Positions 3,281 through 38,092 of a stretch of 64,000 nt of DNA are shown piece by piece (the first letter of the stretch is position 1; each line of letters starts with the position of its first letter). A model generated the notes under the pieces. It did no database searches. It was not told the DNA's origin and worked only from the letters and a program-made list of their open reading frames with translations. Made by a program: the position numbers and the translations under genes. Source of the DNA: Luzula sylvatica (lineage: Eukaryota > Streptophyta > Magnoliopsida > Poales > Juncaceae); assembly GCA_946800325.1 (NCBI GenBank), contig OX326956.1, positions 38,719,082 through 38,783,081 of the forward strand. Direction: 5' to 3'.

Positions 3281-3846
3281 ATTAAGGTTTTGCTTGGTTT
3301 GGGATAACGAAATGGAAGAAAAGGAAAGGGAAGGTAATAAAATTCTCAAGGGTAAAAAAATTATCCTATCCATGCTTGGTTTGGAGAGAGTGGAAGGAGG
3401 GATAAATGGAGATGGTATAATTATATGTAGATGATGGCTAAGATACTCAATTAAGTATTACGGGTTTGATACTTGGGATTTTTTTACCATTAGATTTGTA
3501 TTTTTTTAATGATATATATATTCATCATTAATGATTGTCATATCAGTTTATGCCAATGTTTTAAATTGCGATATAGCGATCCATTGCGTTTGAACTATAA
3601 TTTACATATGATGACCGACATTGCACGATATTGCGGCGATATTTAGTTGTTTGCGGTATTGCGTTTTTGAAATATTTATTGTGATTTGTGCTATGGCGGC
3701 GCAATTGCACCGCTATTTAAATCACTCGTTTATGCTAATCATTAAATGCACAAATCTCAAAGCAAATCTAATGGTAAAAAAAATCTTAAGTATCAAACTC
3801 ATGATACTTAATTAAATATCTTAGACAATCCTCTTATATGTATTAT
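3281..3846. mobile_element. left part of MITE-like repeat with CTTGGTTTGG termini
   Basis: It begins GCTTGGTTTGGGATAACG. The inverse motif CCCAAACCAAGCAAG lies in the right part at about 13165. A further truncated copy is at 23030-23765. Here the element is interrupted at 3846/3847 by foreign DNA, and its sequence resumes after 12955. Non-coding. It could be PIF/Harbinger- or hAT-derived; the family is not certain. Confidence 0.55.
3372..3846 (+). repeat. direct duplication, left copy (about 475 bp)
   Basis: This stretch is repeated in the same orientation at 12479-12955. By eye I found only about four differences: G/C near 3378, T/C near 3480, A/G near 3590 and one A in a homopolymer. The copies bracket the whole 3847-12478 insertion. 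The intact continuation of the repeat follows the right copy only. Confidence 0.85.
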
Positions 3847-4112
3847 TGGGGCAGCCAAAACTGACCCAACAAGACCTCAAAACCGTCCCTATAACGTTTT
3901 GGGTCGGTGAGGCGACCCTAAAATGGTGTCCCTAAAAGCTGCGTTCCTGTCAGGGGCGGGCCGACCCTATAACGTTTTTGGGGCGGTATTTAATGGGGCG
4001 GGCCGACCCTATAACCATCAGTCAATTCACAGCAGAAATAGTACTGTCAGTACTGACGCGTCAGCTAATGGGGATGGCCGACCCTAATAGTATTTATTAA
4101 TATTTTTTTAAT
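3847..4112. other. GC-rich segment with repeated GGGCGGGCCGACCCTATA
   Basis: The motif GGCCGACCCTA(A/T) occurs three times, near 3959, 4002 and 4076, with related GGCGACCCTAAAA at 3912. It is unlike both the MITE to the left and the gypsy element to the right. It may be the end of another transposon or filler DNA. No ORF. Confidence 0.35.
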
Positions 4113-4113
4113 T

Positions 4114-4174
<61 letters not shown>
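4113..4174. repeat. (AT)n microsatellite
   Basis: About 60 bp of uninterrupted AT dinucleotides ending in ACACAC. 4175-4416 is AT-rich with repeated ACAAATTACAAAT and holds no gene. Confidence 0.95.
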
Positions 4175-4181
<7 letters not shown>

Positions 4182-4416
4182 ATACATATTTTTTTAAATC
4201 CATGATACAAAATACACAAACATATACTTTCCTACAATACAAATTACAAATACAAAATCAAATTACAAATTACAAACACACATCAATAGCAAAAAGTATA
4301 TCAATAACAAATTACATATATTTTCCGACGATACAAATTACAAATACAAAATCAAATTACAAATTATAAATTACCACCTCCCTCCATGGCCCCTCAGTAG
4401 CCAACCACCATCCTCA

Positions 4417-6069
4417 TCATCTTTCAATTAACCCATCTATTGGCTTTGGGAGACGACTCGGGAAAGGTGGCTTGACTTGAGTCGATTCGGGTTCTAACTC
4501 TTGAGTTGGTAACGTCGCGGCTTGAGTCGGACTCTTCTTCGGTACCGGTACCTCGAGCTCCTTTTCTTCTTGTACTTCCTTGCTCTTCGAACTTTCGCCC
4601 ACCTCTTTACCGCTTCGGAGCGATATTGCGTTCACATGCCTTTGCTCGGAAGGAGCCAAAGATTGAGATTGGAGTCGAGATGTACCTTGGGATTCGATTA
4701 CGTTTACTCGAGTGGCAATTTGATTGATTTGAGTCTCCAAGTTGCCCACATGGCGATTCGTGTTCGAAACCTCTTGCCTTACACTTGAGATCTCTTGCTT
4801 CAATTCTTGCTTAAATTCTTGCTTCATCGTTTCCATGTTTTTATTGACTCCCCCGATTTCTTGTTTGATTATAGAGGTTATAGCGTCCATCATTGTCTTC
4901 ATATCGAACTCTTGTCCTTGTACCGGTTTCGGTATCGGTTGTGAAGCGTTCGGGTGTTGGTATGTGGCCGGCTTTGTAAACGGTTGGCGATACGGATCGG
5001 GTTGAGCGTTGTTCGTGTTTGACCATGAGAAGTTCGGGTGATTGCGAAGGTTGGGATTGTACGAGTTTGAGGTGTCGAATTTCTTGTAAACGGCATTTGC
5101 ATCTTCGATCACACTTGGGCACTCATCGGTGTGGTGAGTATTCGCGAGGCAAACCCCACATTTTTTCGTTTCCTCCTTGCCCAATGCCTTCATGATGATC
5201 TCGAGCTTGTCGTTAAGCATGTCGACATTGAGGTCGCTACACGCATTAACTCGGCATTCAACATTCCTTCTTGATTGAGAATTGGTTGCCATTACTTCGA
5301 GTAGCTTCTTAATCTCTTCGAGATCCTTGTTCGCGATACTTCCCCCCGCGGATGCGTTGAGGAATTGACTCTCGGAGTATCCTAGCCCTTGTATAAATTG
5401 CTCGTATAGGTAATGGATTGCGACATTGTGGCTTGGACATTCCTCCATCAAACGATTGAATCGATCGTAATACTCGTGGAGAGCTTCGTTTGGCTTTTGC
5501 GTGATTGCTAGAAGTTCTCGCCTAATTGCCGCCAATCTCGAATGCGAGTAGTATTTCTCCTTGAAACGCCTAGCCACTTCATTGAAATCGAGGGGTCCTC
5601 GTAGGTTGTAGAACCAATCTTTCGGCCCTTCACCTAGCGAATAAGGAAAAATAAGAAGTAGAATATCGTTAAATGCTTCATAATTTGCATAGATGTTTAG
5701 TTGAATTTTAAAATCTTTCAAATGCTTGTGTGGGTTTTCGGTTGCTTTGCCATGAAAGATGGGTAAAGAGCCAATGATGCTCGGATCGGCTTTAAAGTTC
5801 GGTATATTTGGCCTAATAAAATTGTAATTATCTTCTATGATATTTGGGGCCACTAATTCCTTTAATGTTTTAGGTCTTGGAATCCTAGTTTCATTATCCA
5901 TATTTGAATTTAAATGAGTAGAGAAAGAAGAAAAAGTTTGAGTTTGAAGTTGAGGTTCGTCTTGATCTTCTTGAATCGGTTCCTTGCTCTTCTTAGAGCT
6001 CTTGTTCCTTCTTTCGATTTCCTTGACAAATGGAAGTAATTCGCCTTTTCGTGATCTTGTGTTGTGCAT
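4417..6069 (-). CDS. gag: Athila-type retrotransposon Gag, C-terminally truncated
   Basis: This encodes the capsid/nucleocapsid polyprotein of the element. I chose the ATG at 6069, giving MHNTRSRKGE as in many plant gypsy Gags; an in-frame GTG lies 18 bp upstream. The retrotransposon_gag core follows a conserved PHKHLKDF stretch and contains EYYDRFNRLMEECP. A CCHC zinc knuckle (CGVCLANTHHTDEC) comes next, then a Q/E-rich coiled tail. Gag usually runs on into protease, but here the frame ends about ten residues after PPFPSRL, at DGLIER-stop. The tail is therefore junction sequence, not native. The gene lies 112 bp downstream of the PBS, as expected for gag. Confidence 0.9.
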   Translation of the reverse strand: MHNTRSRKGELLPFVKEIERRNKSSKKSKEPIQEDQDEPQLQTQTFSSFSTHLNSNMDNETRIPRPKTLKELVAPNIIEDNYNFIRPNIPNFKADPSIIGSLPIFHGKATENPHKHLKDFKIQLNIYANYEAFNDILLLIFPYSLGEGPKDWFYNLRGPLDFNEVARRFKEKYYSHSRLAAIRRELLAITQKPNEALHEYYDRFNRLMEECPSHNVAIHYLYEQFIQGLGYSESQFLNASAGGSIANKDLEEIKKLLEVMATNSQSRRNVECRVNACSDLNVDMLNDKLEIIMKALGKEETKKCGVCLANTHHTDECPSVIEDANAVYKKFDTSNSYNPNLRNHPNFSWSNTNNAQPDPYRQPFTKPATYQHPNASQPIPKPVQGQEFDMKTMMDAITSIIKQEIGGVNKNMETMKQEFKQELKQEISSVRQEVSNTNRHVGNLETQINQIATRVNVIESQGTSRLQSQSLAPSEQRHVNAISLRSGKEVGESSKSKEVQEEKELEVPVPKKSPTQAATLPTQELEPESTQVKPPFPSRLPKPIDGLIER

Positions 6070-6180
6070 AAAGCTTTCTTCCTTCACCTAGATTGTCACA
6101 AAAGAAACAAAGAAGTGAGTAAACAAATTTATGAATTTAAATCTCAAATTTTGATTTAAAATATTGACTTAAACACCGCT

Positions 6181-6197
6181 CCCCGGCAGCGGCGCCA
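6181..6197 (-). other. primer-binding site
   Basis: On the minus strand TGGCGCCGCTGCCGGGG begins two bases after the LTR end CATCA. This is the familiar Athila/Tat-type PBS, thought to be complementary to the 3' end of tRNA-Asp (family knowledge). Confidence 0.85.
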
Positions 6198-6378
6198 TTT
6201 GATGAGCGGGTTTTTGGCGTGTAATATTATCGTTGTATTCGAAAACCCGATTCAATCAATAAGTGTGAAAATATATGTGTATAGTGAAAAATATGAAAGT
6301 TCGTTCCACGGGGAGCAATTGCGTCAAAATTTGGATCAAAATGGATGAGAAATAACGAAGAAAATTCACAGAAGATAG

Positions 6379-6718
6379 TCCGTTACAACGGAAGTGAGTT
6401 CCGTTACAACGGACTTGAGTGAAAATTCTGGCGCTAAGTGTGAGATGAACGTCCGTTACAACGGATGAAACTCCGTTATAACGCACTAAACTGGTCCGTT
6501 ATAACGAACAGGGGTTGCGTTGCAACGGATTGGTTAATCCGTTACAACGGACCACGTTGTCCGTTACAACGCACTAGTATGAGTGATATTGAATGCTTTT
6601 CCTTGCTGGTCCGTTACAACGGAAGTAAGTTGCGTTACAACGGAGTACCAACAGACTGAAAGTCAGGTACAAACCGAATGGTCCGTTATAACGCAAGTTA
6701 GGTTCCGTTACAACGGAG
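6379..6718. repeat. palindrome cluster CCGTTACAACGG in LTR
   Basis: About a dozen copies of (C/G)CGTT(A/G)(C/T)AACGG-type sites lie in 340 bp, for example at 6381, 6401, 6453, 6539 and 6559. Many are perfect 12-bp palindromes; others end in AACGC or AACGA. The sequences between them are unrelated to one another. Confidence 0.85.
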
Positions 6719-7360
6719 TTTGTTCTGGATTTCGAATTTGTAATTTGAATTGAGGATTGAATTGAAGGTTTGTTTTGGGATTTATTTAATGGAAATTTGA
6801 ACTAAGTTTAAGGCAGTAATTGAGGGCAAAAGATCAAGTAAAAGAACAAGTTTAGAACAAAGATTCGATTCAAGTAAACAAGAAACTAAAGATTCATTAA
6901 TCCGAGAATTCTTTACACAACAAAATCCAATCAAACAACAATTAATCAAGTAATTTGAAAAGGAGTACACCTAGTTGAGAAAGCCTCGAAGTGAAGCTCC
7001 TTGTCTCCTTGCCTCGTACCGAAAGATCCTTGCTCCTTGTCTCGATAGTGATGGATTGTACCGAAGGGATGAAGTTCCCTTGTCTCGGATCGCAATCACT
7101 TCGAAGAAACTTGAATCGAGTCACGGCACTTCTTCTCAATTCCACCGTAGGGAATAGCTCCTTGTCACGGCCCGATCTTCGAAGGATGAGAAGGATTCGT
7201 CGAAGGGATGAGCTCCCTTGTCTCGACTAGTCCTTGAGAGATTTTTCTTGATTGATCTTGAAGTATCTTGAAGGATCTTGATTGTGCTTGGAAAAGAGAG
7301 AGGGAGAGAGAGAGAGTAAAAAGGGTAAAAAGAGCGTCCAAAACTCGTGGCCCTTGTGGT

Positions 7361-7370
7361 CATATTTATA
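7361..7370 (-). promoter_or_regulatory. probable LTR TATA box
   Basis: The minus strand reads TATAAATATG about 410 bp inside the LTR. That is a plausible U3/R promoter for the gypsy element. Confidence 0.5.
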
Positions 7371-7781
7371 GCACTCACGGAGTCTTCTTATTGGCCACGA
7401 GTTGGTGAAGAGGATTGAGGGTAATGAGGTAATTTCCATCAAAGATAGGTGGGCTGGATAAGGGCTAAGGATTGAGTGGTTTTCGTATAAACTTGTGTGT
7501 AAGTTTTCATCATGATGATTGTTTGCCTCCCGTCTCATTTATGTACCGAATATATCGGTGTAATATATCATTTTCACTCCTCTTGATGTGTTGGAGACAA
7601 CTACACTCTCCAAATTCCAAGAAATTCCTTCTAATTCCTGTAATTAAGCAGTAAAACACACTTAGTGAAGAAATATTCATGTTATCTCAAATATGATTAA
7701 TAAAGTATATAGAATTGTTCTTCACAAGGGCTAAAATCCCCAAATTAAGCATTAATTTTGTGCCTTATTTGCCTCACATCA

Positions 7782-7796
7782 AATACCCCCACACTT
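7782..7796 (-). other. polypurine tract
   Basis: The minus strand reads AAGTGTGGGGGTATT immediately before the LTR start TGATG. AAGTGTGGGGGTA is a typical PPT for Athila/Tat-like elements. Confidence 0.85.
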
Positions 7797-8239
7797 AAAT
7801 CCTTGATCGTCCTCGATCAATTAGAGTATAAAAGTCAAACATAATAGAGAATTGCATAAGATTTTGTTGAAGTTATATTGTTGGTTCAAAAACTAATTTT
7901 ATGAATCAAATGGTTCACTCTCCTTTCATCAAGTTCACTAGTTATTTAGAATGATATTGGTCTTTTCATTATTAGATCTCGAAAATACTCGAAATTTCAT
8001 AAGAGTTTTTCATGACACTCGATCTCAAACGGTAAGAGCGACTTAAACGTTTTTACTTCGAATTGCTTAACTCCACAATCTCAAAAGAACTCAATTCGAA
8101 AGCTATTATCGGGCCAAAATTTCCCGTTTTGCTAGATGATCTTAAATGCAAGTTATTCATTTTAAAACACGTTTGGTACAATGGTACAAGGTTCATACCC
8201 GTCTTCGATCAATTTTCCCGCTCATTCGTTTTCTTTTCT

Positions 8240-8445
8240 CTCTTATATGAAGTCTTTAACCGAAAGCCTCACTACACCGAAATGCAATGAGGTTACTCTC
8301 GGTGTTGTCTTTTGACCTTCATTTTTTTTTTTTTTTTTATATGAAGTCTTTAACCGAAAGCCTCACTACACCGAAATGCAATGAGGTTACTCTCGGTGTT
8401 GTCTTTTGACCTTCATTTTTTTTTTTTTTTTTTTTTTTTTTTTCA
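8240..8445. repeat. tandem duplication ending in poly(T)
   Basis: A unit of about 100 bp from ATATGAAGTCTTTAACCG to a T run occurs twice in tandem (about 8246-8338 and 8339-8442) in the non-coding 3' part of the gypsy element. The second T run is longer. 7797-9498 holds no env-like gene. Confidence 0.85.
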
Positions 8446-8920
8446 AGCGAGTATATTTGATCTACTAACGGATCCCCACAAACGGTCATTTCATAGTGCA
8501 ATTGGTCATGTTTTAACTCTAGCAAAACGTACTTTAACGGCCACGCTAAGAACCTTACTCATAAGTCCCATATCAATTACGGTTTCGAAAATCGAGTTAA
8601 AACGTATCGCATGAACCGTGCATTGATCAAGTGTCTCAAACTCGTGAAATTTGAAACAATAGGGCTGGAATCCCCGAATAGATCTCTTCAAAATCATAAC
8701 CAAATCTTTTTAAATATTTTGCAAACTTTCAATTTTGAGAGCGAAATTCCGAGTAAAATGAAATTTTGTTTTAAAAACAACAATTTAGTTCAATTCAGTG
8801 GAGAAAAATCTTTTTATGCATTTTATGCTTGACTTATTTATTATTGATGCTCAGGGTTCAAAAATAATGTTTAATGTTTGAAAATTTCAAGTAAAAGAGA
8901 AAACTTGCCAGAAACTATTC

Positions 8921-9262
8921 CGTTATAACGCAATTTAAAGTCCGTTACAACGGACATTGAGGTCCGTTACAACGTACTAACTGCGTTATAACGGAGCACT
9001 ATTCGTAGCTTAGTTTGAAAATTCTGAGTATGTCCGTTGCAACGGACATTGAGGTCCGTTACAACGCACATAGTTCTGGCAAATTTTGGGAATTTACCGT
9101 TGCAACGCAATTTCCTGTGTTTTTCATGTCCGTTGCAACGCTATTTTCCCTCCGTTATAACGGACATTGAGGTCCGTTACAACGGAGCTCTTGGCGCCAG
9201 TCAAAATTTAAAATTTATGTACAGTCCGTTACAACGGACATTGAGGTCCGTTACAACGGAGT
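8921..9262. repeat. second palindrome cluster CCGTTRYAACGG
   Basis: About fourteen sites of the same type as in the LTR lie upstream of the PPT. Many are joined by the linker ACATTGAGGT, giving repeated units of roughly 30-35 bp with the pattern palindrome-ACATTGAGGT-palindrome. The cluster lies between the pol stop codon and the PPT. Confidence 0.85.
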
Positions 9263-9498
9263 TGCTGGCCAGATCAAAAAATTTCAATTTTTCCCTGATT
9301 TTTAAATTTTTAATTGGGCTCATACAGGTCAAAGATTGTATGTTACCCCCCCACACTTAGAGATTACTTGTCCTCAAGTATACAAAATCGAAAATTCCAA
9401 AAAGAGGGATAATAGAGAGATACAACCTTTGATGCGTGGGCGTGCCTCCCTCGCTAGCGCTCTTGTTTAACGTCTTGAGCTCGACTTGGCTGAGCTCA

Positions 9499-12441
9499 TC
9501 ATTGTGAGGTGTCGTTGGGCTTTAGAGATTGCTCCTCCATCCACCCGGTTTCGAAGTTTGCGTGGTAGTGCTTGAGTCGATGACCGTTCACTTTGAATGA
9601 TTTGCTCGTTCCTTCGCTTCGAATTTCGACAACTCCAAATGTAGTCACATTGGTGACCACAAAGGGGCCGATCCATCGGGATTGAAGTTTTCCGGGGAAA
9701 AGTTTGAGACGAGAGTTGAATAACAACACTCTTTCCCCTTCTTGGAATTCTTTCTTTTGAATCATTCGGTCATGGAACCTCTTTGCTTTTGCCTTGCACG
9801 AGCTCGAATTATCGTAGGCCTCTTGCCGGAATTCGTCTAGCTCGAGTAATTGAAGCTTACGCGCCGATGCGTCCTTCGGGTAGTCGAGGGCCAATTGCTT
9901 GATCGCCCAAAAGGCTTTGTGCTCTAATTCGACCGGGAGATGGCACGCCTTTCCGTACACGAGTTTGAAAGGAGTCATACCTATTGGCGTTTTGAAGGCG
10001 GTACGATACGCCCAAAGTGCGTCGCCTAGTCGAGAACTCCAATCCTTTCGTGTCGGGTTCACCACTTTTTCCAAAATAGATTTTATTTCTCGATTCGAAA
10101 CCTCCGCTTGGCCGTTTGTTTGAGGATGATACGCGGTTGAGGTTCGATGGCTCACATGGTATTTTTCGAGGAGGCTTTGGAGATATCGATTGCAAAAATG
10201 GGATCCTCGATCGCTTATGAGAACTCTTGGTATGCCGAATCGTTGAAAGATATTCTTTTTTAAAAAGTCTACCACCGTTTTTGAATCCGCGTGCCTTGTT
10301 GGTATTGCCTCCACCCATTTGGTAACATAATCTACACACAACAAGATGTAAGTATAGCCAAAAGACGATGGAAACGGGCCCATGAAATCAATGCCCCAAA
10401 CATCGAATGGTTCACACACATAGATTGAATTGAGGGGCATTTGATTTCTACGGCTCAAGTTCCCCGTCTTTTGGCAATTTCCACAACCTTTCACAAAGTT
10501 TGCAACGTCTTTATGCAAGGTTGGCCAATAAAATCCACATTCTTGTACCTTGTGTGTGGTACGTGCAATACCGAAATGTCCACCACATTGTAATGTATGA
10601 CAAAAGGAAAGGATAGATTGTACCTCATTTTGGTGCACACATTTTCGAATTACTTGGTCGGCACAAATGCGGAAAAGGATCGGGTCTTCCCAAACGTAGA
10701 ATCGAGCGTTGCTTTTCATCTTATCGCGTTGTGCCTTGGAGAAGCTCGGGGGAAAATTCTTCGTGACGATGTAGTTTGCAAGGTCGGCGTACCATGGCGC
10801 TTCGACTTGAGCCGCGAGAACGTGTTCCTCGGGGAATTCCTCGCGAATCGGAACAAGATCTTCGATTTTCAATGGAAGCCGACTCAAATGATCCGCCACG
10901 AGATTCTCGCATCCCTTTTTGTCCTTGATCTCTAGGTTGAATTCTTGAAGCAAAAGGATCCATCGAAGCAATCTCGGTTTGCACTCCTTTTTCTTCATCA
11001 AGTGTCTCAACGCGCCGTGGTCCGAGAAGACTATCACTTTCGTACCTAAAAGATAAGAACGAAATTTCTCCAATGCAAACACAATTGCGAGGAGTTCCTT
11101 TTCGGTGGTGGTGTAGTTTCGTTGGGCATTGTCGAGAGACTTGGAGGCGTAGGCGATGACGTGGGGGTCTTTTCCTTCTCTTTGGCCAAGTACCGCCCCC
11201 ACACTTGTGTCGCTTGCGTCACACATTATTTCGAACGGTAGCTCCCAATTTGGCGACTTGATGATTGGTGCGGAGCAAAGCTTCTCTTTCAAATCGTCGA
11301 AGGATCTCTTGCACTTTTCCCCGAACTCGAATTTCTCGTCTTTCTTCAATAGTTGGCACATTGGTTGGGCGGTTTTCGAGAAGTCTTTGATGAAGCGCCT
11401 ATAGAATCCCGCATGGCCGAGAAAGGATCGCACGTCTTTTACCGTCTTTGGATACGGAAGTGTTTTGATTACGTCGATTTTCGCCTTGTCGACTTCCATT
11501 CCTTTCTCCGAGATCAAATGACCTAATACAATTCCATTGCTCACCATGAAGTGGCATTTCTCAAAATTTAAAACAAGGTTAGATTCAATGCACTTCTCGA
11601 GTATTTGGGACAAGTGATCTAGACACGAGTCGAATGAGTCCCCAAATACCGAGAAGTCGTCCATAAAGACCTCAATAAATTTCGAAATGTAATCACTAAA
11701 AATCGAAAGCATACACCTTTGAAAAGTTCCCGGTGCGTTGCAAAGGCCGAATGGCATGCGTCGGTACGCGAAGGTACCAAACGGGCACGTGAATGTGGTC
11801 TTCTCTTGATCTTCGGGTGCGACCGGTATTTGGAAATAGCCCGAAAATCCATCGAGGAAGCAATAGAACGGATTTCCCGCGAGTCTTTCTATCATTTGAT
11901 CGATGAATGGAAGCGGGAAGTGGTCCTTTTTCGTCGCCTTATTGAGCCTTCGGTAATCGATGCAAACTCGCCACCCGTTTTGAACTCGAGTCGGCACTTG
12001 ATCGCCTTCATTGTTCTCAACTATCGTCATCCCCGTCTTCTTCGGCACCACGTGTATGGGCGAGACCCATTTCGAATCGGCGATAGGGTAAATGATCCCC
12101 GCATCTAACAATTTAATCACCTCCTTTTTTACTACTTCCATCATGGGCGGATTGAGCCGCCTTTGTGGTTCTCGCGAAGGCTTAGCATCGTCCTCGAGGA
12201 TAATGCGGTGTGTGCACATGGAGGGACTAATGCCCGGAATGTCCGCGAGTGTCCACCCGAATGCCTTCTTGTTCCGTTTTAGCACTTCAACGAGTTTCTC
12301 TTCTTGTTCCTTTGCTAGACTCGAGGCAATTATCACCGGCAAGGTCTCCGCTTCATCCAAAAATACGTATTTTAGTCCAAAAGGTAGTGATTTTAGATCT
12401 AACCTTGGAGCTTGTTCGGTGGAAGGTGGAGCTCTTTGCAT
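9499..12441 (-). CDS. pol: Athila-type Pol: RT, RNase H, integrase (980 aa)
   Basis: An intact frame without stops, reading open to the junction at 12478. The first visible ATG is at 12441. Residues about 85-345 are reverse transcriptase ([11 protein letters not shown]; catalytic FMDD at 259-262 in the Athila-like context FMDDFSVFG). RNase H follows ([23 protein letters not shown]). Next comes the integrase HHCC zinc finger ([10 protein letters not shown] ... CGNCQKTGN) and the DDE core ([32 protein letters not shown]). The C-terminus has [12 protein letters not shown] integrase sequence. The N-terminus begins just before RT; protease is missing. The frame is unbroken, so it could have been functional recently. 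Confidence 0.93.
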
Positions 12442-12478
12442 CGGGATTTCGAGGTCTCTTAGAAAGAGTGCTTGATCT

Positions 12479-12955
12479 ATGCTTCGTTTGGAGAGAGTGG
12501 AAGGAGGGATAAATGGAGATGGTATAATTATATGTAGATGATGGCTAAGATACTCAATTAAGTATTACGGGTTTGATACTTGGGACTTTTTTACCATTAG
12601 ATTTGTATTTTTTTAATGATATATATATTCATCATTAATGATTGTCATATCAGTTTATGCCAATGTTTTAAATTGCGATATAGCGATCCATTGCGTTTGG
12701 ACTATAATTTACATATGATGACCGACATTGCACGATATTGCGGCGATATTTAGTTGTTTGCGGTATTGCGTTTTTGAAATATTTATTGTGATTTGTGCTA
12801 TGGCGGCGCAATTGCACCGCTATTTAAATCACTCGTTTATGCTAATCATTAAATGCACAAATCTCAAAGCAAATCTAATGGTAAAAAAATCTTAAGTATC
12901 AAACTCATGATACTTAATTAAATATCTTAGACAATCCTCTTATATGTATTATATG
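12479..12955 (+). repeat. direct duplication, right copy
   Basis: Near-identical to 3372-3846 and in the same orientation. It starts exactly where gypsy pol sequence stops. Unlike the left copy, it continues into the rest of the MITE-like repeat. Confidence 0.85.
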
Positions 12956-13330
12956 TATTATATTTATTTTTGAAATAATTTATATAAATATAACAAATTA
13001 ATTTTTAAAATTACGATAACATAAATTTTCAACATCAAAAAAATTTCAAAATATGATATTTTTGAAAATAATTATTTTTTTCTAAACATATTTTGTCATC
13101 ATCTCCATTTGATATATTACTTGAGATGTTCATTTCCCTTCCCTTTCTTTTCTCTTCTCTATTCCCAAACCAAGCAAGAAAATGTATTCTCTTCCCTTCC
13201 CTTCCCTTCCCTTCCCCTCATTTACCCCCCAAACCAAGTAAATCCTAAGGTGGTGTTTGGCAACGAGTAAGTAGAAGATAAAGTACTTTATTATTCTATT
13301 ATTTGCCAAACATAACTTACTTTATCAGGT
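12956..13330. mobile_element. right part of MITE-like repeat
   Basis: It continues the repeat interrupted at 3846: 12956-13330 matches 23380-23768. It contains CCCAAACCAAGCAAG (about 13165), runs of CTTCCC, CCCCAAACCAAGTAAATCC, and a small inner hairpin GTGTTTGGCAA/TTGCCAAACA (13253-13312). Non-coding. Confidence 0.55.
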
Positions 13331-13331
13331 A

Positions 13332-16908: not shown

Positions 16909-18833
16909 CTAGCTTTCTTCCCGCGCAATTGCCTGGAGGTCTTCAGTCTGTCATGATTTTATTTTTCTCAATACGTAATTAGATTCTACATTTTTTTTAT
17001 CTGCTTGTACACACATAAAAAAAAATCTATCTTTTTGTAAATTTCAAAAAAACTGATCCTCTACCAAACTTTTATTTCCTAATACTCTTATGAAAGATCT
17101 TAAAAACAAACGGACAAAAATACACTTCTATTTTCAAATTTAATAATTAAAAATATATTTTTATTATTTTTTATTAATTTTATTACTTTTAAGAAAATTC
17201 ATAAACATTTTTAACATGCAGTGATTACAAAAAAAATATAATAATTACAAATTGAGTTTATATAATTTTAATATTTCATTTATTATGTATGAAAAAATAA
17301 CATCGGGTAATAATAAAATAAACAATAATAAATAAACATCTTGAAAATATATTAATAGAAAAATATCGGTTTAAACATCTGGTTTTTTTTATTTTCATTC
17401 TCTTTTTATTTATTTCTTTAATAGTTTCATGATATTTTATTTTTCAAATATTTGGAATGTGTTTTTGTAATATTGTTGTTCATTTTATTATTATTTTATG
17501 TTAGTTTTGCAAAGAAAAAATGCAAAGGTCAAAATGTTAAAATTATGTAAATAAAATATATAATAACTTTTTTAAAATTATTATATGGTACCAAAATTTA
17601 GGACTTTATTAACATTATTAAAAAATAACATGTACATATGTAAATTATTAAATTTGATGACATGGAGGAACCAAATGAGAGAAATTTTCTTAACTTTATA
17701 CATATACAAAATGTAAATTAAAACTAAAAAGGACCAACATATAAATAAAAAGGACCGAAATATAAATTAAAATGTAAAAAAGGACTGAAATGTAAATAAA
17801 AAAGGACCAAAATGTTAATAAAAAAGAACAAAATATAAACTTAAATTAAAAAGGACCAAAATATAAATAAAAGGGACGAAAATGTAAATTCAAAAATGTA
17901 AAAAAGGACCGAAATATAAATAAAAGAGGATCAAAATATAAATAAAAAGGACCAAAATATAAATAAAAAGAACCAAAATATAATTTTAAAATTCAAAAGG
18001 ATCAAAATGTAAATTTAAAAAATATTATTTTTACAAAAAAGCCCCTGATGACGTGGCCTCATGTATGAGCTCCATTTCTTCCAACTTTATACATAAGTAT
18101 TTATTTCTTTAATAGTTTCATGATATTTTATTTTTCAAATATTTGGAATGTGTTTTTGTAATATTATTGTTCGTTTTATTATTATTTTATGTTAGTTTTG
18201 CAAATAAAAAATGCAAAGGTCAAAATGTTAAAATTATGTAAATAAAATATATAATAACTTTTTTAAAATTATTGTATGGTACCAAAATTTAGGACTTTAT
18301 TAACATTATTAAAAAATAACACGTACATATGTAAATTATTAAAATTTGATGACATGGAGCAACCAAATGAGAGAAATTTTCTTAACTTTATACATATACA
18401 AAATGTAAATTAAAACTAAAAAGGATCAACATATAAATAAAAAGTACAGAAATATAAATTAAAATATAAAAAAGGACTGAAATGTAAATAAAAAGGACCA
18501 AAATGTTAATAAAAAGAACCAAAATATAAACTTAAATTAAAAAGGACCAAAATATAAATAAAAAGGACCAAAATGTATATTCAAAAATGTAAAAAAGGAC
18601 CGAAATATAAATAAAAGAGGATCAAAATATAAATAAAAATGACCAAAATGTAAATTTTTAAAGTAAAAAGGACCAAAGTGTAAATAAAAAGGAGCAAAAT
18701 GTAATTTTTAAATTAAAAAGGACCAAAATGTAAATTTAAAAATATTTATTTTACAAAAAAACCCCTGATGACGTGGCCTCATGTATGAGCTCCATAAAAA
18801 AAATTCTTCCAACTTTATACATAAGTATAATAA
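16909..18833 (-). mobile_element. Helitron-like element (1.9 kb)
   Basis: On the minus strand the 3' end is a hairpin around GCAATTGCGCGGG (16936-16920), a spacer, CTAG (16912-16909) and host T. The host sequence on both sides is continuous in HIPP copy A2 at 27158-27185 (TATATAAATAAGAAGATG), a clean empty site between A and T. The opposite end reads TTATTATACTTATG on the minus strand; the usual TC start is not obvious. There is no Rep/helicase ORF, so it is non-autonomous. Confidence 0.7.
17408..18815. repeat. internal 0.69-kb direct repeat with GGACCAAAAT minisatellite
   Basis: 17408-18080 and 18099-18815 are two copies in direct orientation, each starting TTTATTTCTTTAATAG and ending with GACGTGGCCTCATGTATGAG. 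Each holds a run of units of about 18-20 bp of the form AAAAGGACCAAAATRTAAAT. Confidence 0.85.
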
Positions 18834-19013
18834 TAAGAAGATGAAATATATCAATATATGGTGTACTGTTTTGTTTTGTTCAGTTTCTATAAAAAAAATT
18901 GTGCCTTACCATATAAACTAAAATGAAAACTCAATCAATGCTGCAAAATTAATTTATCAAGTAAATTTACAAAACAAAAAATACACCTTATAATTAGTAG
19001 TTAATTAGTTATA

Positions 19014-19060
19014 CTAAGAAAATACTCGCGTTACGCAACGAGCATGTTAAGTATGTTTTT
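19014..19060 (-). mobile_element. degenerate Helitron-like 3' end
   Basis: The minus strand has CGTTGCGTAACGCGAG followed by TATTTTCTTAGT, close to the hairpin-CTAGT layout but with CTTAG. The same feature lies at 27359-27400 downstream of copy A2, so it predates the A-B pair duplication. Confidence 0.35.
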
Positions 19061-20998
19061 CATTATAATATAATATAAACATTTATATGCTAATACTAAT
19101 AATTTCATCTCAAAATAAAATTATTTTTTTAGTTTCTATTAGGTTTTTAAAATTATTTAATCTACTTAGTATTATATGGAATTCTTATAGTTGTAATATT
19201 TTTAAAAATAAATAATAATACTTAAAATTCTATTATATAAATACGTATTTTTTTTTCATTTTACTTTCTTACATAATATCATTACAAATTATTACAAATT
19301 AAAAGTATAGTGAAAGGTACATGTGAATTATGCTAATATGGATATCAAACTAAATAGAAAATTGAAACGAATATATTTGATGGATTTTTAAATTAAAGTT
19401 CTAAAAAAATATTAATATATATTGTATGTTTATAATATTATATATTAATTTATTAGTATTTCCTATATAAATGTTTACATCACTAGACCATAATAATTTG
19501 TGTGCATTTGTTGTTCTAAGAAATCTTAACTCCTAGTTGCACATGTGTGAACATGCCAAGGGTTTCATTGAACTTTAAGAAGAAGTATTAATTAATATTA
19601 ATTTGAACTTAAACCGTTTTGAAAGGTGATAGTAGCTAAGGGTTTCATTGAACTTTAAGAAGAAGTATTAATTAATATTAATTTGAACTTAAACCGTTTT
19701 GAAAGGTGATAGTAGCCAAGGGTTTCATTGAACTTTAAGAAGAAGTATTAATTAATATTAATTTGAACTTAAACCGTTTTGAAAGGTGATAGTACCATCA
19801 ATCCATCATGCCTATAAAGTCCAATTTGGATTACTCTTAAAACATTTCGATCCAACGAGTTATTTTGAGAAATCTTTGTCATGTTTATTAACCTTTGGGT
19901 TTGAAATTAGTTATTAAACATAAAGGTCCAAAATGACCTAATCTTTTCATAGCAAAGTATAGATTGATCATAATCTTTTATGCTGTAAAAAAACTGACAA
20001 GTTGATTTCATCATCTGTGTTACGCAAGTTCTCCACAAGTTGCAATTACTAAGAATCTCTTAATCTCTGTTTAGCGACTTAATTATTGTTCACAAATCAC
20101 AATCACGACTTAATCTATTAATCACATATTACACTATCACATATGACATAACAGAGAGAATGCAACAACAGAATTATGGAGACGCCGACGCGTTCTACTA
20201 TAAATTAAACAAAAAATATAAGAATGATTCCCGTAATATACAGACAAAATACATCGCTATTTGGTAGTAATTATTATAATTATAAAAAAAGAAGTTGTTA
20301 TTGACTCCATCCATCGAAAGGTCTTGGATCGTGATTGATCAGGTGTTATAGTTCTTCTCCATTTTCAACCAAGAATGGCCACTCTCCGAGCATATATTTT
20401 GAACTCATGGAGATTGGAATTTTTAAAACAAGTTTTAAAATATATTTTCAGCTCATTTATAAATTTATACGGATTTGATATTTATCTGTATGATGTATTT
20501 TTAAGTCGAGTTTAACAAAGTTATTTTCATTTCTTATTTATTTTGCCCAATCGATTGTTGATGATCAACTCAAAAAATTTGGCCTGTATAAATTTACTTG
20601 ATTCTTCATATTATATAAAAACAATATTTGTGATACAGTCTATTTTTGTTTTTTGAGATTATATTTTGGAAAAGAGCACTCTTTACTATTGATGAACAAA
20701 ACAAAAAAAACAAAAAAAAAAGAAGAAGAAGGGAAAGCTCCATTTAGGACAGAACAGAGACATTTGAGATCTTCTCCACGAAGGAACCTATTTTTCCAAT
20801 TAAATATTTGTTTTTAATTAAAAGATAATAATAATTGCTTTTGATTGGATGATTGGAAGAGGAGACGAGGACTGACTTCGAAAATTAATCTCGTCATTGT
20901 TTATTTGTTTTTTCAAGAGAGAAGCAAAATTGGTTATTTCCTGATGGTCTTCCAAAAGGAGACTAGGATTGACTTCCAAAAGTAATCGCGTCATTGCT
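19061..20998. other. intergenic/promoter region upstream of HIPP B1
   Basis: AT-rich. 19061-19500 matches 27400-28120, but the latter carries about 455 bp more (27469-27924). 20190-20820 matches 28130-28790, upstream of B3. The part from about 19800 onward also resembles the upstream region of A2 (24750-25150). No ORF was recognised. Confidence 0.6.
19557..19796 (+). repeat. three tandem 80-bp units
   Basis: GGTTTCATTGAACTTTAAG recurs at 19561, 19641 and 19721, exactly 80 bp apart. The units are almost identical, so amplification is recent. It lies upstream of HIPP B1 and is not seen upstream of B3. Confidence 0.95.
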
Positions 20999-21000
20999 AC

Positions 21001-21008
21001 TATAAATA
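21001..21008 (+). promoter_or_regulatory. TATA box of HIPP B1
   Basis: TATAAATA lies 93 bp upstream of the ATG, inside a motif (ACTATAAATACACCT) kept in all four complete copies. Confidence 0.7.
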
Positions 21009-21101
21009 CACCTCCAAAATGAATCCTCCTCACTCATTTCACATTCATTCATTCATTCCTCTTCTCCCAACTTTTAATACACTTCATCAAGCTAAGCAAA
21101 A

Positions 21102-22376
21102 ATGGGCGGCATGAAGGTAACAACTAACACCGAAAGCCAGAAAAAGAATTAAATGCAATATGATTCATTTATTCATTCTTTTTTAATGCAGAAGCTTGTG
21201 TTGAAATTGGATTTACATGATGACAGACAAAAGCCCAAGGCAATGAAAATTGTTTGCAGTTTTGAAGGTACCAACTATACTATATCATGCAAATGTTGTT
21301 ATATGAATTTTCATGATTTTCTTTTTCTCAATTTGGTTTATAAATTAAATATGTAATATACTATACATATAGTGTTATTAATAGGGATGTCAATGGTGTG
21401 GATATTGCCCGAACCGACCCGAACCGTATCCGAAGAAATATCCGGATTCGAAAAAAATATCCGGATCCGAGTGGATCCGGATATGGATCTGGTTGCTAAT
21501 TTTAGGATCCGGAACCGGATTCGATATTCGATTTTGGTGCGGGGACCGGATCCGTGTTCCGGATCCGAGTATTTTTAGGATCCGGATACTCGGAACCAGA
21601 TTCGAGTATCCGGAACCGGATCCGGATACGCATATTATATATTATTTTTATGTATTATATTTGATATTAGTTGAAAATCATATACAAATTAATGATTTGT
21701 GAGTGATTTAAACTCACAATCGTAAAATTACGTTTAAATATAATCATATTTATCGTTCATGTCACAAATTATATATATTCATAGCTAAAAAGTAAGTTAT
21801 GTTATAATAACATAGTATCCGTTTTAATATCCGAAAGAGAACCGTATCCGTATCCGTATCCGACAATATCCGAACCGTATCCGTATCCGTTTATTATCCG
21901 AACCGTATCCGGATCCGGGTAATTCCGTATCCGGATCCGTATCCGAAAAAAAATATGGATATGGATCTGGTATGACCACTATCCGAACCGGATCCGAACC
22001 GTTGACACCCCTAGTTATTAAGGCAAATTAAATTAAATATAGTTTTTATTTTATTAGAAAATATATTATTATTTTAAACAATATTTTATACTTATTTACG
22101 GATTTTTTTTTTATTATTACCATGAAAAAATATTGTTCTTGTTCACACATAAACTCGTGTTTCTCCGGCTTTTTTTTATTTTTTTTTATTTGGATTATGG
22201 ATTTCCAATCTAATTTGCTCAAGTCTGCAGGAATTTATTCCATTTCCTTAAACAAGGAAGACAAAAACCAAATCACAATAATAGGATCGTTCGATGGTAC
22301 CGACATAGTTGTAAAATTGAGAAAAAAGTGGCACACTGAAATGCTCTCATTTGGTCTCGCAAGCGAGCCTCGGTAA
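21102..22376 (+). CDS. HIPP: HIPP39-like HMA protein, copy B1 (78 aa, truncated)
   Basis: Three exons: 21102-21116 (MGGMK), 21192-21267 and 22231-22376. All junctions are GT/AG, and the short first exon plus the phase-1 second intron match the other copies. The product is one HMA fold: KLVLKLDLHDDRQKPKAM (first strand, loop and helix start), then GIYSISLNKEDKNQITI and VKLRKKW. The metal-binding CxxC of classical HMA domains is replaced by DDRQK, as in HIPP39-type members. After GLASEPR a TAA ends the frame where B3 has GAGAAA, so the charged linker and tail are lost. The gene may be expressed as a soluble mini-HMA or be decaying. Intron 2 carries hAT element A. Confidence 0.75.
21382..22013. 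mobile_element. non-autonomous hAT, copy A (632 bp)
   Basis: The ends are TAGGGATGTCAATGG and CCGTTGACACCCCTA. It is flanked by the exact 8-bp duplication GTTATTAA (21374-21381 and 22014-22021). The interior is packed with CCGGATCCG and CCGAACCG motifs near both ends. HIPP B3 keeps the empty site at 29896-29908 (GTGTTGTTAAGG). No transposase. Confidence 0.95.
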
Positions 22377-22465
22377 AAGAAAGAGGAACCCAAAAAAAAA
22401 GACGTTTCAAAAATTAAAGATACGTGTTCCTTCAATACACAATACCAACATTATGGGGGCGTTTG

Positions 22466-23029: not shown

Positions 23030-23768
23030 TAATTTGTATTTTTTTAATGATATATATATTCATCATTAATGATTCTCATATCAGTTTATGCCAATGTTTT
23101 AAATTGTGATATAGCGATCCATTGCGCTTGAACTATAATTTACATATGATGACCGACATTGCACGATATTGCGGTGATATTTAGTTGTTTGCGGTATTGC
23201 GTTTTTGAAATATTTATTGTGATTTGTGCTATGGCGGCGCAATTGCACCGCTATTTAAATCACTCGTTTATGCTAATCATTAAATGCACAAATCTCAAAG
23301 CAAATCTAATGGTAAAAAAATCTTAAGTATCAAACTCATAATACTTAATTAAATATCTTAGACAATCCTCTTATATGTATTATATGTATTATATTTATTT
23401 TTGAAATAATTTATATAAATATAACAAATTAATTTTTTAAATTACGATAACATAAATTTTCAACATCAAAAAAATTTCAAAATATGATATTTTTGAAAAT
23501 AATTATTTTTTTCTAAACATATTTTGTCATCATCTCCATTTGATATATTACTTGAGATGTTCATTTCCCTTCCCTTCCCTTTCTCTTCTCTATTCCCAAA
23601 CCAAGCAAGAAAATGTATTCTCTTCCCTTCCCTTCCCTTCCCTTTCCTTTCCCTCATTTACCCCCCAAACCAAGTAAATCCTAAGGTGGTGTTTGGCAAC
23701 GAGATAAGTAGAAGATAAACTACTTTATTATTCTATTCTTTGCCAAACATAACGTACTTTATCAGGTA
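23030..23768. mobile_element. third copy of the 3281/12479 MITE-like repeat, truncated
   Basis: It matches 12600-13330 with scattered substitutions and lacks the first 0.2-0.3 kb. It proves that the sequence after 12955 is the native continuation of the repeat. It also shows uninterrupted flank (TTTATCAGGTATAAGAAGG) where the Helitron-type end at 13332 inserted. Confidence 0.7.
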
Positions 23769-27129: not shown

Positions 27130-27220
27130 GAATATGAAATATATCAATATATGGTGTACTGTTTTGTATATAAATAAGAAGATGAAATATATCGATATAT
27201 GGTGTACTGTTTTGTTTTGT
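27130..27220 (+). repeat. short tandem duplication in HIPP 3' flank
   Basis: The roughly 45-bp sequence around ATGAAATATATCRATATATGG occurs twice. The second unit abuts the insertion point of the Helitron found at 16909 in the A0 locus. Confidence 0.8.
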
Positions 27221-28780
27221 TCAGTTTCTATAAAAAAAATTGTGCCTTACCATATAAACTAAAATGAAAACTCAATCAATGCTGCAAAATTAATTTATCA
27301 AGTAAATTTACAAAACAAAAAATACACCTTATAATTAGTAGTTAATTAGTTATACTAAGAAAATACTCGCGCTACGAAACGAACATGTTAAGTATGTTTT
27401 TCATTATAATATAAAATAAACATTTATATGCTGATACTAATAATATCATCTCAAAATAAAATTATTTGAGCTCATAAGTCTATGATTATTTATATATTTT
27501 ACAATTATTTTACATTGTGATATCAAAATAACTCAATTTTTTTTTATCAAATAATAATACCGGTATTATTGTCATTGTATAATAATATATGAGATATAAC
27601 ACAATTTTACGAAAAAAAATATAACATCGAATATTATATCATTGTTGTTCACAATATTTTATACAATATCAAATATAAAAATAGTAAATCGTAAGACGTA
27701 GTAACACATCATTCATTAAATAATTTTTTATTGATTGAAAATGTAATGAAAATTATAAATAATATCAAACTTAACAGTGAAACTAATTTAATAAATGATA
27801 TCAAAATTTAATTTAGCATAAACATAAATATAAATATTTAAATTATAAAAATCACTTTTAAAAATAATAATATTTTTGTATATGTGTTTATAAGTTTAAG
27901 AAGTTATTTAGATAAATAAACTACTTTTTTAGTTTCTATTAGGTTTTTAAAATTATTTAATCTAGTTAGTATTATATGAAATTCTTATAGTTGTAATATT
28001 TTAAAAAATAAATAATAATACTTAAAATTCTATTATATAAATACGTATTTTTTTTTTTGCATGTTACTTTCTTACGTAATATCGTTACAAATTAAAATTA
28101 TAGTAAACGCTACATGTGAATTATCGAGACACCGACGCGTTCTCCTATAAATTAAACAAAAAAGATAAGAATGATTCCCGTATATGCAGACAAAATATAT
28201 CGCTGTATGGTAGTAATTAACTAATTATAATTATAAAAAAAAGAAGTTGCTATGGACTCCATCCATCGAAAGGTCTTGGATCGTGATTGATCATGTGTTA
28301 CATTTCTTCTCCATTTTCGACCAAGAATGGCCACTCTCCAAGCATATATTTTGAACTCATGGAGATTGGAATTTTTAAAACAAGTTTTTAAAATATATTT
28401 TCAGCCCATTTATAAATTTATACGGATTTGATATTTATCTGTATGATGTATTTTTAAGTGGAGTTTAACAAAGTTATTTTCATTTCTTATTTATTTTGCC
28501 CAATCGATTGTTGATGATCAACTCAAAAAATTTGGCCTGTATAATTTACTTGATTCTTCAAATTATCTAAAAAATAATATTTGTGATATAGTCTATTTTT
28601 GTTTTTTGAGATTATATTTTGGGAAAGAGAACTCTTTACTATTGATGAACAAAAAAAAAAGAAAAGAAGGGAAGGATCCATTTGGGACAGAACAGAGAAC
28701 ATTTGAGATTTTCTCCACTAGGGAACCTGGCTGCTAAATCTATTTTTTATTTTCCAATTAAATATTTGCTTTTAATTAAA
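27221..28780. other. intergenic region upstream of HIPP B3
   Basis: It is collinear with 18860-20820 apart from about 455 bp present only here (27469-27924), absence of the 80-bp triplicate, and a missing stretch corresponding to 19310-20180. No gene. Confidence 0.6.
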
Positions 28781-29446
28781 GGGAAATTCCTAAAAAAAAC
28801 CCTAACTTTTTTGGGATTCCTCATAAACCCCCTAACTTTTTTATTATTTGAAAAAAAAACCCTACAAACGTTAACTTTAACATTTCATCCAATTTTTAAT
28901 TTTTTGGACAAAAATACCCTTCTTGATTTTAATTTATAAATTCTTTTATTCAATATAAATTAATAAATACATAAATAAATTAAATATTTCATGATAAATA
29001 TTTCACGTTATTATAATAAAATAATTTATGATAATATTTTACAACCCATTATTTTTATTTTACTATATATATATATAAGAAAAATTATTATTATTAAATA
29101 AATACTATTTCACACATTGCATTTTTTATTTTTACATTAAATAATTTTATATAAAACTCATATAATAAATTACAGAATAATATAATAAATATGACGATAT
29201 AATATTATGAAATATTATATTGTAAAATATTATTTATTTATTAGTTTATAGAATAAATTCAAATTATAAATTGTGAGGGTATTTTGGTCCAAAAAAGAAT
29301 AATTAGGATGAAAAATAAAAAATAACACTATTAGGGAGTTTTTCAAGAATTAAACTTAATTTATAGGGGATTTTTCAAAAAAATCTAAAAGTTAGGGGTT
29401 TTTTGAGAAATGCCAAAAAAATTAGGGGGTTTTAGAAGAATTCCCC
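28781..29446. mobile_element. MULE-like MITE (666 bp) with 9-bp target duplication
   Basis: The inverted ends are GGGAAATTCCTAAAAAAAAC and GTTTTAGAAGAATTCCCC. It is flanked by the exact 9-bp duplication TTAATTAAA (28772-28780, 29447-29455). HIPP B1 keeps the empty site near 20815-20822 (TTTTAATTAAAAGATAAT). No ORF. The size of the duplication points to Mutator-like elements. Confidence 0.9.
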
Positions 29447-29525
29447 TTAATTAAAAGATAATAATAATAATAATTGCGAAAAGGAGACTAGGATTGACTT
29501 CCAAAAGTAATCGCGTCATTGCTCC

Positions 29526-29533
29526 TATAAATA
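29526..29533 (+). promoter_or_regulatory. TATA box of HIPP B3
   Basis: TATAAATA in CCTATAAATACACCT, 94 bp upstream of the ATG. Confidence 0.7.
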
Positions 29534-29627
29534 CACCTTCAAAATGAATCCTACTCACTCATTTCACATTCATTCATTCATTCCTCTTCTCCAAACTTTT
29601 AATACACTTCATCAAGCTAAAGCAAAA

Positions 29628-30479
29628 ATGGCCGGCATGAAGGTAACAACTAACACTGAAAGACAGAAAAAGAATTAGTTGCAATATGATTCATTTATTC
29701 ATTCTTTAATGCAGAAGCTTGTGTTGAAATTGGATTTACCTGATGACAGACAAAAGTCCAAGGCAATGATAATCGTTTGCAGTTTTGAAGGTACCAACAA
29801 TATTATATCATGCAAATGTTGTTATATGGATTTTCATGATTTTCTTTTTCTCAATTTGTTTTATAAATTAAATATGTACTATACTATACATATAGTGTTG
29901 TTAAGGAAAATTAAATTAAATATAGTTTTTATTTTATTAGAAAATATATTATTATTTTAAACAATATTTTATACTTATTTACGGATTATTTTTTTTCTCA
30001 ATTTGATCATAAAAAAATATGACAAAAATTATATATTATGTTTTATGTTATTTATCAATAATGAATATTTCAGTAATTCATCATGGGAAAAATATATTAC
30101 CATGAAAAAATATTGTCCTTGTTCACACATAAACTCGTGTTTCTCCGGCTTTTATTTTTTTTATTTTATTTGGATTATGGATTTCCAATCTAATTTGCTC
30201 AAATCTGCAGGAATTCATTCCATTTCCTTAAACAAGGAAGACAAAAACCAAATCACAATAATAGGATCGTTCGATGCTACCGACATAGTTGTAAAATTGA
30301 GAAAAAAGTGGCCCACTGAAATGCTCTCATTTGGTCTCGCAAGCGAGCCTGAGAAAAAGAAAGAGAAACCCAAAAAAGAAGAAGATTCAAAAAACAAAGA
30401 CAGCAAGGGGGTGATTGAGACTTATAAGGCGTATCTTCCTTACATGAGTACACAATACCAACATTATGGGGGCGTTTGA
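29628..30479 (+). CDS. HIPP: HIPP39-like HMA protein, copy B3 (119 aa, tail replaced)
   Basis: Exons are 29628-29642 (MAGMK), 29715-29790 and 30211-30479. The HMA domain spans roughly residues 6-75 (KLVLKLDLPDDRQKSKAM ... VVKLRKKWPTEM), again without CxxC. The linker is very charged (EKKKEKPKKEEDSKNKD). The last residues are YMSTQYQHYGGV: the sequence departs from the family after QHY, because MITE-like DNA (GGGGGCGTTTG) begins there, and the MITE supplies GGV-stop. The NPNxCVIC tail is absent, so the protein lacks a prenylation site. Otherwise the frame, splice sites and TATA box are intact. Confidence 0.85.
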
Positions 30480-30992: not shown

Positions 30993-31591
30993 TAGGGGTG
31001 TCAACGGTTCGGATCCGGTTCGGATAGTGGTCATACCAGATCCATATCCATATTGTCGGATCCGGATACGGTTCGGATAATAAACGGATACGGATACGGT
31101 TCGGATATTGTCGGATACGGATACGGATATGGTTCTGTTTCGGATATTAAAACGGATACTATGTTATCATAACGTAACTTACTTTTTAGCTATAAATATA
31201 TATAATTTGTGACATGAACGATAAATATGATTATATTTAAACATAATTTTACGATTGTGAGTTAAATCACTTACAAATCATTAATTTGTATATGATTTTT
31301 CAACTAATATCAAATATAATACATAAAATAATATATAATATGAGTATTCGGATCCGGTTTCGGATACTCGAATCTAGTTTCGAGTATCCGGATCCTAAAA
31401 ATACCCGGATCCGGAACACGGATCCGGTTCCCGCACCAAAACCGAATATCGAATCCGGTTCCGGATCTTAAAATTAGCAACCAGATCCATATCCGGATCC
31501 ACTCGGATTCGGATATTTTTTTCGAATCCGGATATTTTTTCGGATACGGTTCGGGTCGGTTCGGACAATATCCACGCCATTGACATCCCTA
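30993..31591. mobile_element. non-autonomous hAT, copy B (599 bp)
   Basis: The ends are TAGGGGTGTCAACGG and GCCATTGACATCCCTA, with exact 8-bp duplication CCCATACC at 30985-30992 and 31592-31599. The interior has the same CCGGATCCG/CGGATACGG motif crowd as copies A, C and D. Relative to A the body is inverted. Confidence 0.95.
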
Positions 31592-37591: not shown

Positions 37592-38092
37592 TTTATTGTA
37601 ATACGTTAGTTGTTATGTATGTATGTTGAGTATATGCGTTGCATTTTTAATTTATGGTTGATTGGTTTTATGGAAAGAATAAAAAAAATTCGATTTTCCC
37701 CAAACAGTCATTTATTAGTTCAAAATTCATTAAAAAAAAAAAAAAAAAAAAAAAAACCACTGCGGATCGCGGGATATGTCCTAGTCAATATAATATTGCT
37801 AAAATATTTTGGAATCAATAAAATAAATTTCGAATTATCTGAAAACTAAATTTTCGAAAAATCGAATGATTTGAAATCAAATTTTACGAAACCCGAATAA
37901 CTCAAAAAATGAAATGATCCGAAAACCAAAACGATCCGAAACCGAAACGACCCGAACCCGAACTACCTGCAATCCGAACGACCGGCAACGCGAACGATCC
38001 ACGACCCGAACAATCCGAACAACCCGATAATCCGAACGGTGCGCAACCCGAAACGACGTGAATCCGGCATGATCCGATTGCCACCTCTAAAT
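37592..38092. mobile_element. hAT-like end fragment and A-run, inside the inversion
   Basis: Near 38089-38075 the minus strand reads TAGAGGTGGCAATCGG, a common hAT terminus, with CCGAAC-type motifs over 37915-38040. A 25-nt A run lies at 37733-37757. The other end was not found and was probably cut by the inversion breakpoint at 37591. Confidence 0.4.

Follow-up and report, generated by a model that had tools for sequence, protein, structure and literature searches.

Natural insertions in rice have reportedly formed tandem duplications via patch-mediated break repair, to go by the title of a study by Vaughn and Bennetzen from 2014. The likeness suggested by that title to the locus described here, in a 64-kb window from Luzula sylvatica (the whole stretch of DNA that was analysed, G000:C1:38719082-38783081, compared within a genome of 445 Mb in 37 contigs), is the duplication of host sequence at the insertion; the difference is that the insert here measures 8.6 kb and comprises nearly a whole Athila-like retrotransposon in rotated order, with a single long terminal repeat (LTR). 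The closest conceptual parallel is offered by the endogenous caulimovirids, for which it has been proposed, speculatively according to a review (PMC10377300), that circular viral DNA was taken up as filler at plant breaks without integrase, via end joining or microhomology; the source there is viral, whereas here it is an LTR retrotransposon that normally uses its own integrase. A further likeness is found in Arabidopsis epigenetic mutants, in which circles of retrotransposons are accompanied by chimeric joints and by structural variants, but in the available part of that report the truncated insertions all have two LTRs and a permuted one-LTR insertion is not described (PMC10462705).

The literature on extrachromosomal circular DNA (eccDNA) of plants, in its available portion, mainly describes the circles, and re-entry into the genome is suggested there, not demonstrated. 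According to the accessible text of the respective papers, Athila elements of Arabidopsis produce eccDNA (PMC12273906), both single-LTR and two-LTR retrotransposon circles were detected in carrot callus by polymerase chain reaction (PMC9324142), and breaks at transposon excision sites of rice are repaired with foreign fillers (PMC4423477). Among the titles listed by literature searches (in two of them 20 of 1220 and 20 of 29), no plant case of a permuted one-LTR insertion or of circle re-entry was recognised. We rate the permuted one-LTR retrotransposon insertion reported here, with all its joints resolved, as a new form of an already known type of repair.

Results

The element is read on the minus strand in circularly permuted order (Table 1), and the Pfam domains of its pol open reading frame (ORF) follow the order reverse transcriptase (RT), RNase H, integrase, as in Ty3/gypsy. 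The tract is unbroken across both LTR borders, and the joints of the LTR with the polypurine tract (PPT) and with the primer-binding site (PBS) are intact. The LTR of an intact relative (C6:489085-499494, below) matches the window at a single site (blastn, E 1e-10). No protease domain was found in the gag or pol ORF by a Pfam scan at E 0.001, and the protease segment of the relative, which the tract lacks, is without match in the 64 kb in DNA or peptide searches (E up to 1).

Table 1. Positions in the window of the insert, its parts, its joints and the duplicated host sequence (UTR, untranslated region; MITE, miniature inverted-repeat transposable element; R, right flank).
Feature	Position	Strand	Remarks
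Host sequence D, left copy (A)	3379-3846	plus	MITE-like inverted repeat within; link to R severed at 3846
Joint 1, D to CACTA	3844-3846		3-bp microhomology TAT
CACTA transposon-end internal fragment (filler)	3844-4441	plus	starts ~20 bp inside CACTACAACA terminus; (TA)n run ~4117-4175
gag ORF	4417-6087	minus	Retrotrans_gag PF03732, 9.1e-13; final ~22 nt and stop supplied by CACTA filler
Joint 2, CACTA to gag	4439-4441		3-bp microhomology ATT
Athila-like tract, Ty3/gypsy	4439-12488	minus	order pol-3'UTR-PPT-LTR-PBS-gag, 8050 bp; by alignment to C6:489085-499494
PBS	6180-6197	minus	17/18 complementary to tRNA-Asp 3' end
Single LTR	6200-7781	minus	termini TGATG...CATCA; vs C6:489085-499494, 8 substitutions/1580 against the 3' LTR and 10 against the 5' LTR
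PPT region GTGTGGGGGTATT	7782-7795	minus	adjoins LTR; read from sequence
pol ORF	9499-12441	minus	RVT_1, RNase H, integrase H2C2 and rve
Joint 3, pol to D	12486-12488		3-bp microhomology GTT within longer imperfect match
Host sequence D, right copy (B)	12486-12952	plus	still attached to R
Older local copy T (part of D, and R)	23032-23768	plus	97.6% to 12601-13331; unbroken at insert point; ~10 kb away

Two normal copies of the family, C6:489085-499494 and C6:38496343-38506792, each have two LTRs and a 5-bp target-site duplication (TSD; CCTCT and CGGTA, respectively). In the former, gag, protease and pol are open in one frame, therefore the two ORFs of the window are cut pieces of one polyprotein, and its LTRs differ at 5 of 1581 sites. 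Compared to this copy, the window lacks one contiguous interval of 773 bp (C6:492426-493198), which holds an aspartic protease domain (PF13650, E 4e-5, 24.7 bits at a cut-off of 24.3; the domain is demonstrated in one of the two normal copies). Since the gap is single, both ends of the tract are neighbours on the element map. Sequence spanning both breakpoints of the window is present in three further relatives (C3:60.37 Mb, C6:38.50 Mb and C2:25.47 Mb). A one-LTR circle of C6:489085-499494 would measure 8830 bp; the window has 8050 bp of it and is without the 773 bp, or 8.8%, the few bases beyond 8050 + 773 being small indels.

Substitutions between the window and C6:489085-499494 number 29 in 8040 sites (0.36%), with no step along the tract: 6 of 1761 sites differ in gag and the PBS region, 8 of 1709 in the 3'UTR and 7 of 2990 in pol (for the LTR, counted here against the 3' LTR, see Table 1). 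This evenness is informative because the four other copies compared in the same bins are uneven, carrying highly divergent bins beside near-identical ones (e.g. pol of C3:60.36 and gag of C2:25.47). As the divergence is the same throughout gag, the LTR, the 3'UTR and pol, the tract has the look of a single piece and not of two differently related copies joined together.

On either side the insert is adjoined exactly by one copy of the host sequence D, the two forming a direct repeat with 2 substitutions and 1 indel in 468 alignment columns. BLAST extends the match 11 bp leftward (to 3368 and 12475), which reflects a chance resemblance of the pol end to the host. Over the 352 bp shared with the local copy T, A is separated from B by 1 substitution plus 1 indel and from T by 5 substitutions plus 1 indel; between B and T there are 6 substitutions. 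As A and B are closer to each other than either is to T, the more recent duplication is that of the bracketing pair; copy T shows, as far as sequence comparison goes, that the host sequence around the insertion was locally duplicated before the insertion. Beyond these three local copies, the genome matches to D are partial pieces of 75-92% identity (best 40 of 2495 candidates scored). Together with the MITE-like repeat and the continuation of T into R, these partial matches lead us to read the 468-bp repeats as host sequence.

Two other interpretations of the repeats were rejected. They are not the LTRs of another element, given the MITE-like inverted repeat inside and the continuation of T into the right flank. 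That D had been tandemly duplicated beforehand and the middle then replaced is conceivable given T, but A and B are mutually closest and their limits coincide exactly with the joints of the insert. At substitution rates of 1.3e-8 and 7e-9 per site per year, the 2 substitutions in 467 sites date the pair to ~165 thousand years (20-595) and ~306 thousand years (37-1105), respectively, which is in keeping with the 5/1581 LTR difference of the intact relative, i.e. with the period of family activity.

The segment between A and gag is an internal fragment of a CACTA transposon end. Among the query matches listed (best 40 of 369 candidates), the window alone passes query position 595 into gag. Among 29 other CACTA loci, 13 of the 14 left flanks displayed (plus-strand alignments only) read CACTACAACA and the remaining one TACTACAACA, and the right ends displayed, 13 of 13, run on into common non-gag sequence. 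Since the filler begins ~20 bp inside the CACTA terminus, it was not delivered by CACTA transposition. Random joints drawn from this window shared at least 3 bp in 7.6% of 20000 trials; in the insert the microhomology is 3 bp at 3 of 3 joints. The features of an integrase-type insertion are lacking at its borders, in that the only LTR is internal, no outer LTRs are present and a 5-bp TSD is absent. Neither border is an LTR terminus; the ends lie in gag and pol, beside the CACTA filler and the 468-bp duplication. Features of break repair are present both as host duplication adjoining the two sides and as microhomology at the joints.

These results bear on an earlier note on this DNA, made from its letters. 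The order pol-PPT-LTR-PBS-gag on the minus strand, with one LTR and no protease, is corroborated by the domain scans and the single blastn match, and the two normal copies agree with its premise that such a copy has two outer LTRs. That the tract ends are neighbours on the element map was likewise borne out, the missing piece being one interval. The note had placed both outer ends at the gag/pol junction, as found here, but its extent of 3847-12478 has to be replaced by the limits of tract and filler in Table 1, and the two ORFs that it called open are open as pieces of one polyprotein, the end and stop of gag coming from the filler. A third partial LTR or a protease remnant was searched for in 3847-4416 and none was found, the segment being CACTA. 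This CACTA identity of 3844-4441 and the 468-bp host direct repeat were overlooked in the note.

Among the best 40 of 3594 candidates scored, picked by likeness and thus not giving a genome-wide rate, three, counting the window itself, have an LTR flanked on either side by internal sequence. At C3:15112577 (C3:15111411-15115172), the 3'UTR and the final ~125 nt of pol lie upstream of the LTR in register with the gag start, and downstream follow the gag start, a pol match and, ~17.8 kb on, the next placed 3' LTR. At C2:25470818 (C2:25470589-25481783), ~710 bp of 3'UTR lie upstream of the 5' LTR, inside a satellite array, and the locus runs in register to a second LTR. Both are too divergent to be plausible donors. 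The former matches the 3'UTR of the window piecewise, with identities of 95.0% and 97.3% when indels are included, compared to 8/1709 for C6:489085-499494, and the latter differs at 71/496, 57/499 and 85/496 sites in three gag bins. The copy nearest in pol by bit score, C3:66705623 (4471 versus 4489 for self), differs at 5/1581 sites in gag and was rejected as a simple parent, since its 3' LTR is different at 24/1580 sites and its gag is preceded by an inverted LTR-like sequence of ~86-89% identity. As a separate observation, C2:25470589-25481783 is a mosaic: its gag differs from that of the window by 11-17% and the start of its pol by up to 12%, whereas its LTR and remaining pol are near-identical.

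By sequence, the element resembles the envelope-less members of the Athila type. The Athila clade is defined by the phylogeny of RT, RNase H and integrase, and the Athila ORF-1 domain PF03078 occurs in 16% of Athila elements, as given in the available text of a survey (PMC6317226). For the RNase H of pol, the RT_RNaseH models alone match at E 0.001, weak matches to archaeal-type RNase H, the marker of the sister clade Tat, not having been sought. In common with the Athila/Calypso/Diaspora branch of plant Ty3/gypsy (OTA superclade), a PBS that fits tRNA-Asp, as in Calypso and Diaspora, stands close behind the LTR, and the intact relative has gag-pro-pol in a single frame (PMC1142308); the window copy differs from them in being permuted, with one LTR and without protease. 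Between pol and the LTR, no ORF of at least 150 aa is present, which is a likeness to the envelope-less Diaspora, but the distance from pol to PPT is 128 bp in Diaspora according to the same partial source (PMC1142308) and that from the pol stop to the LTR is ~1.7 kb here. A search for the tRNA-Asp gene of this genome gave 8 pattern places; of the 2 fetched, neither is a tRNA gene and both resemble a PBS on the other strand. Within the 3'UTR, a 94-bp unit is repeated in tandem at 8229-8432, together with an A/T run, and relatives align to both units.

Elsewhere in the window, a 51-nt repeat occurs 11 times over 618-1178; its copies share at least 60% and most include the palindrome GGCGGTACCGCC. 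The regions 18825-22420 and 27166-30400 are piecewise alike (91-97%) at shifted spacing, with a further alike piece, inverted, at 21382-21917 and 31057-31591. By eye, the ORFs at 36821-37609 and 39540-40280 resemble pieces of a long interspersed nuclear element (LINE) reverse transcriptase and its C-terminal part.

Discussion

The combination of a 468-bp duplication, CACTA filler and 3-bp joints with the lack of a 5-bp TSD and of an LTR terminus at the borders argues for break repair and against integrase. Judged by these sequence features, the insert is a break-repair insertion, and neither the work of integrase nor a tandem pair eroded in place. We infer one event, in which a double-strand break in host D/R would have been repaired by end-joining or template switching through short microhomologies, and in which the repair would have taken up a CACTA scrap plus a near-complete Athila-like element in circular permutation. 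The order of the repair steps is conjectural: the 468-bp host duplication may have arisen by fill-in of staggered nicks 468 bp apart, or by a last template switch from pol back upstream at GTT. The permuted element could derive from a one-LTR extrachromosomal circle of 8.83 kb that was opened where gag meets pol and lost 773 bp there. Break-repair capture with such a circle as the simplest source is what we consider probable, by a modest measure; it is simplest because one opening and a small loss suffice, and because neighbouring ends are predicted. Of the integration of a one-LTR circle proposed in the earlier note, the adjacent ends and the small loss stand, and circularity of the donor is the part to be held with reserve, as an array copy or an LTR jump gives the same order. 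A circle made by auto-integration (PMC4751563) was discarded, since by our reasoning it would lose sequence beside an LTR, and both LTR borders are intact.

Several points weigh against capture of a circle in a single repair event. First, a circle leaves no mark distinct from that of a tandem array or an LTR-to-LTR jump, and the sequences at C3:15112577 and C2:25470818 show that chromosomal head-to-tail arrangements of the family exist in this genome. In the same-genome comparisons, a near-identical donor over the whole Athila tract was not found, nor was one for the CACTA piece, of which the nearest copy measured full-length differs at 7/515 sites outside the TA run, compared to 2/467 between the D copies. 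As D had already been duplicated locally, giving T, the bracketing pair might conceivably be older than the insert. The chance of ~4e-4 that all three joints share at least 3 bp holds if the joints are independent, an assumption, and uses the window's own composition. Finally, two 3' LTR matches lie ~8.9 kb apart on C1 (34667876 and 34676796), a candidate array.

The alternative that survives best places the same repair event in a different relation to its donor: the Athila tract would have been copied from the chromosome, either from an LTR-int-LTR-int-LTR array (int, internal sequence) or from a normal copy with synthesis jumping from the 5' LTR to the 3' LTR. The two loci with internal sequence on both sides of an LTR are in its favour, a strand jump is feasible with just 5/1581 differences between the two LTRs of the intact relative, and foreign-filler repair is documented in rice in the available text of that study (PMC4423477). 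However, the search for intact copies and tandems in the assembly, as suggested in the earlier note, yielded besides the two normal copies, among the best 40 candidates scored, two array-like loci of which neither resembles the donor, and copying offers no reason why the tract should end 773 bp before a full unit. For array or LTR-jump sources, a tract of 91-100% of one unit has a ~4 to 5% chance by hand arithmetic under an ad hoc flat prior from zero to two units. Moreover, the fillers at rice excision sites average 13 bp with a range of 1-123 bp in the same available text (PMC4423477), versus 8 kb here. We regard chromosomal copying as rather unlikely.

A circle could also have been chimeric beforehand, an Athila-CACTA circle in which CACTA replaced the protease and which was opened at the pol/CACTA joint on insertion. 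An eccDNA fusing part of a retrotransposon with a gene fragment has been sequenced in Arabidopsis mutants, as reported in the available text (PMC10462705), but this scheme requires reopening exactly at one of two joints, whereas gain of the filler during repair needs no such coincidence, and we hold it to be improbable. More doubtful still is an integrase-inserted tandem pair whose outer parts were later lost by independent deletions, which was disfavoured in the earlier note as well. It fits the order by itself, and array-like loci exist, but it does not predict the 468-bp host duplication at both deletion ends nor the CACTA scrap at one; the duplication and the microhomology joints point to one repair event, the uninterrupted paralogue T displays the D-R order of the unbroken site, and neither a further LTR nor a protease remnant was found in the window. 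An assembly artefact is equally hard to credit, for although repeats of >99% identity are present, misjoins are expected in long identical repeats and the three joints are 3-bp matches of unrelated sequences, in a contig 77 Mb long.

Returning to break-repair capture of a one-LTR circle, the locus, with its joints resolved to 3 bp, offers a legible record of one way in which circles may re-enter genomes. Its signature, consisting of rotated order, one LTR, a small single gap at the opening, long host duplication, microhomology and filler, can be searched for by program in long-read assemblies. Copies made independently of integrase would in this way be separable from normal insertions, which is relevant to the dating of LTR elements and to their annotation. 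We consider the case about evenly balanced for a more general statement, that one-LTR circles can re-enter a plant chromosome without integrase as a break-repair patch, leaving a recognisable class of insertion marked by a rotated open-frame copy and a long flanking host duplication. If this is true, one-LTR circles, usually considered a dead end of retrotransposition, re-enter chromosomes, and past eccDNA recapture would be countable.

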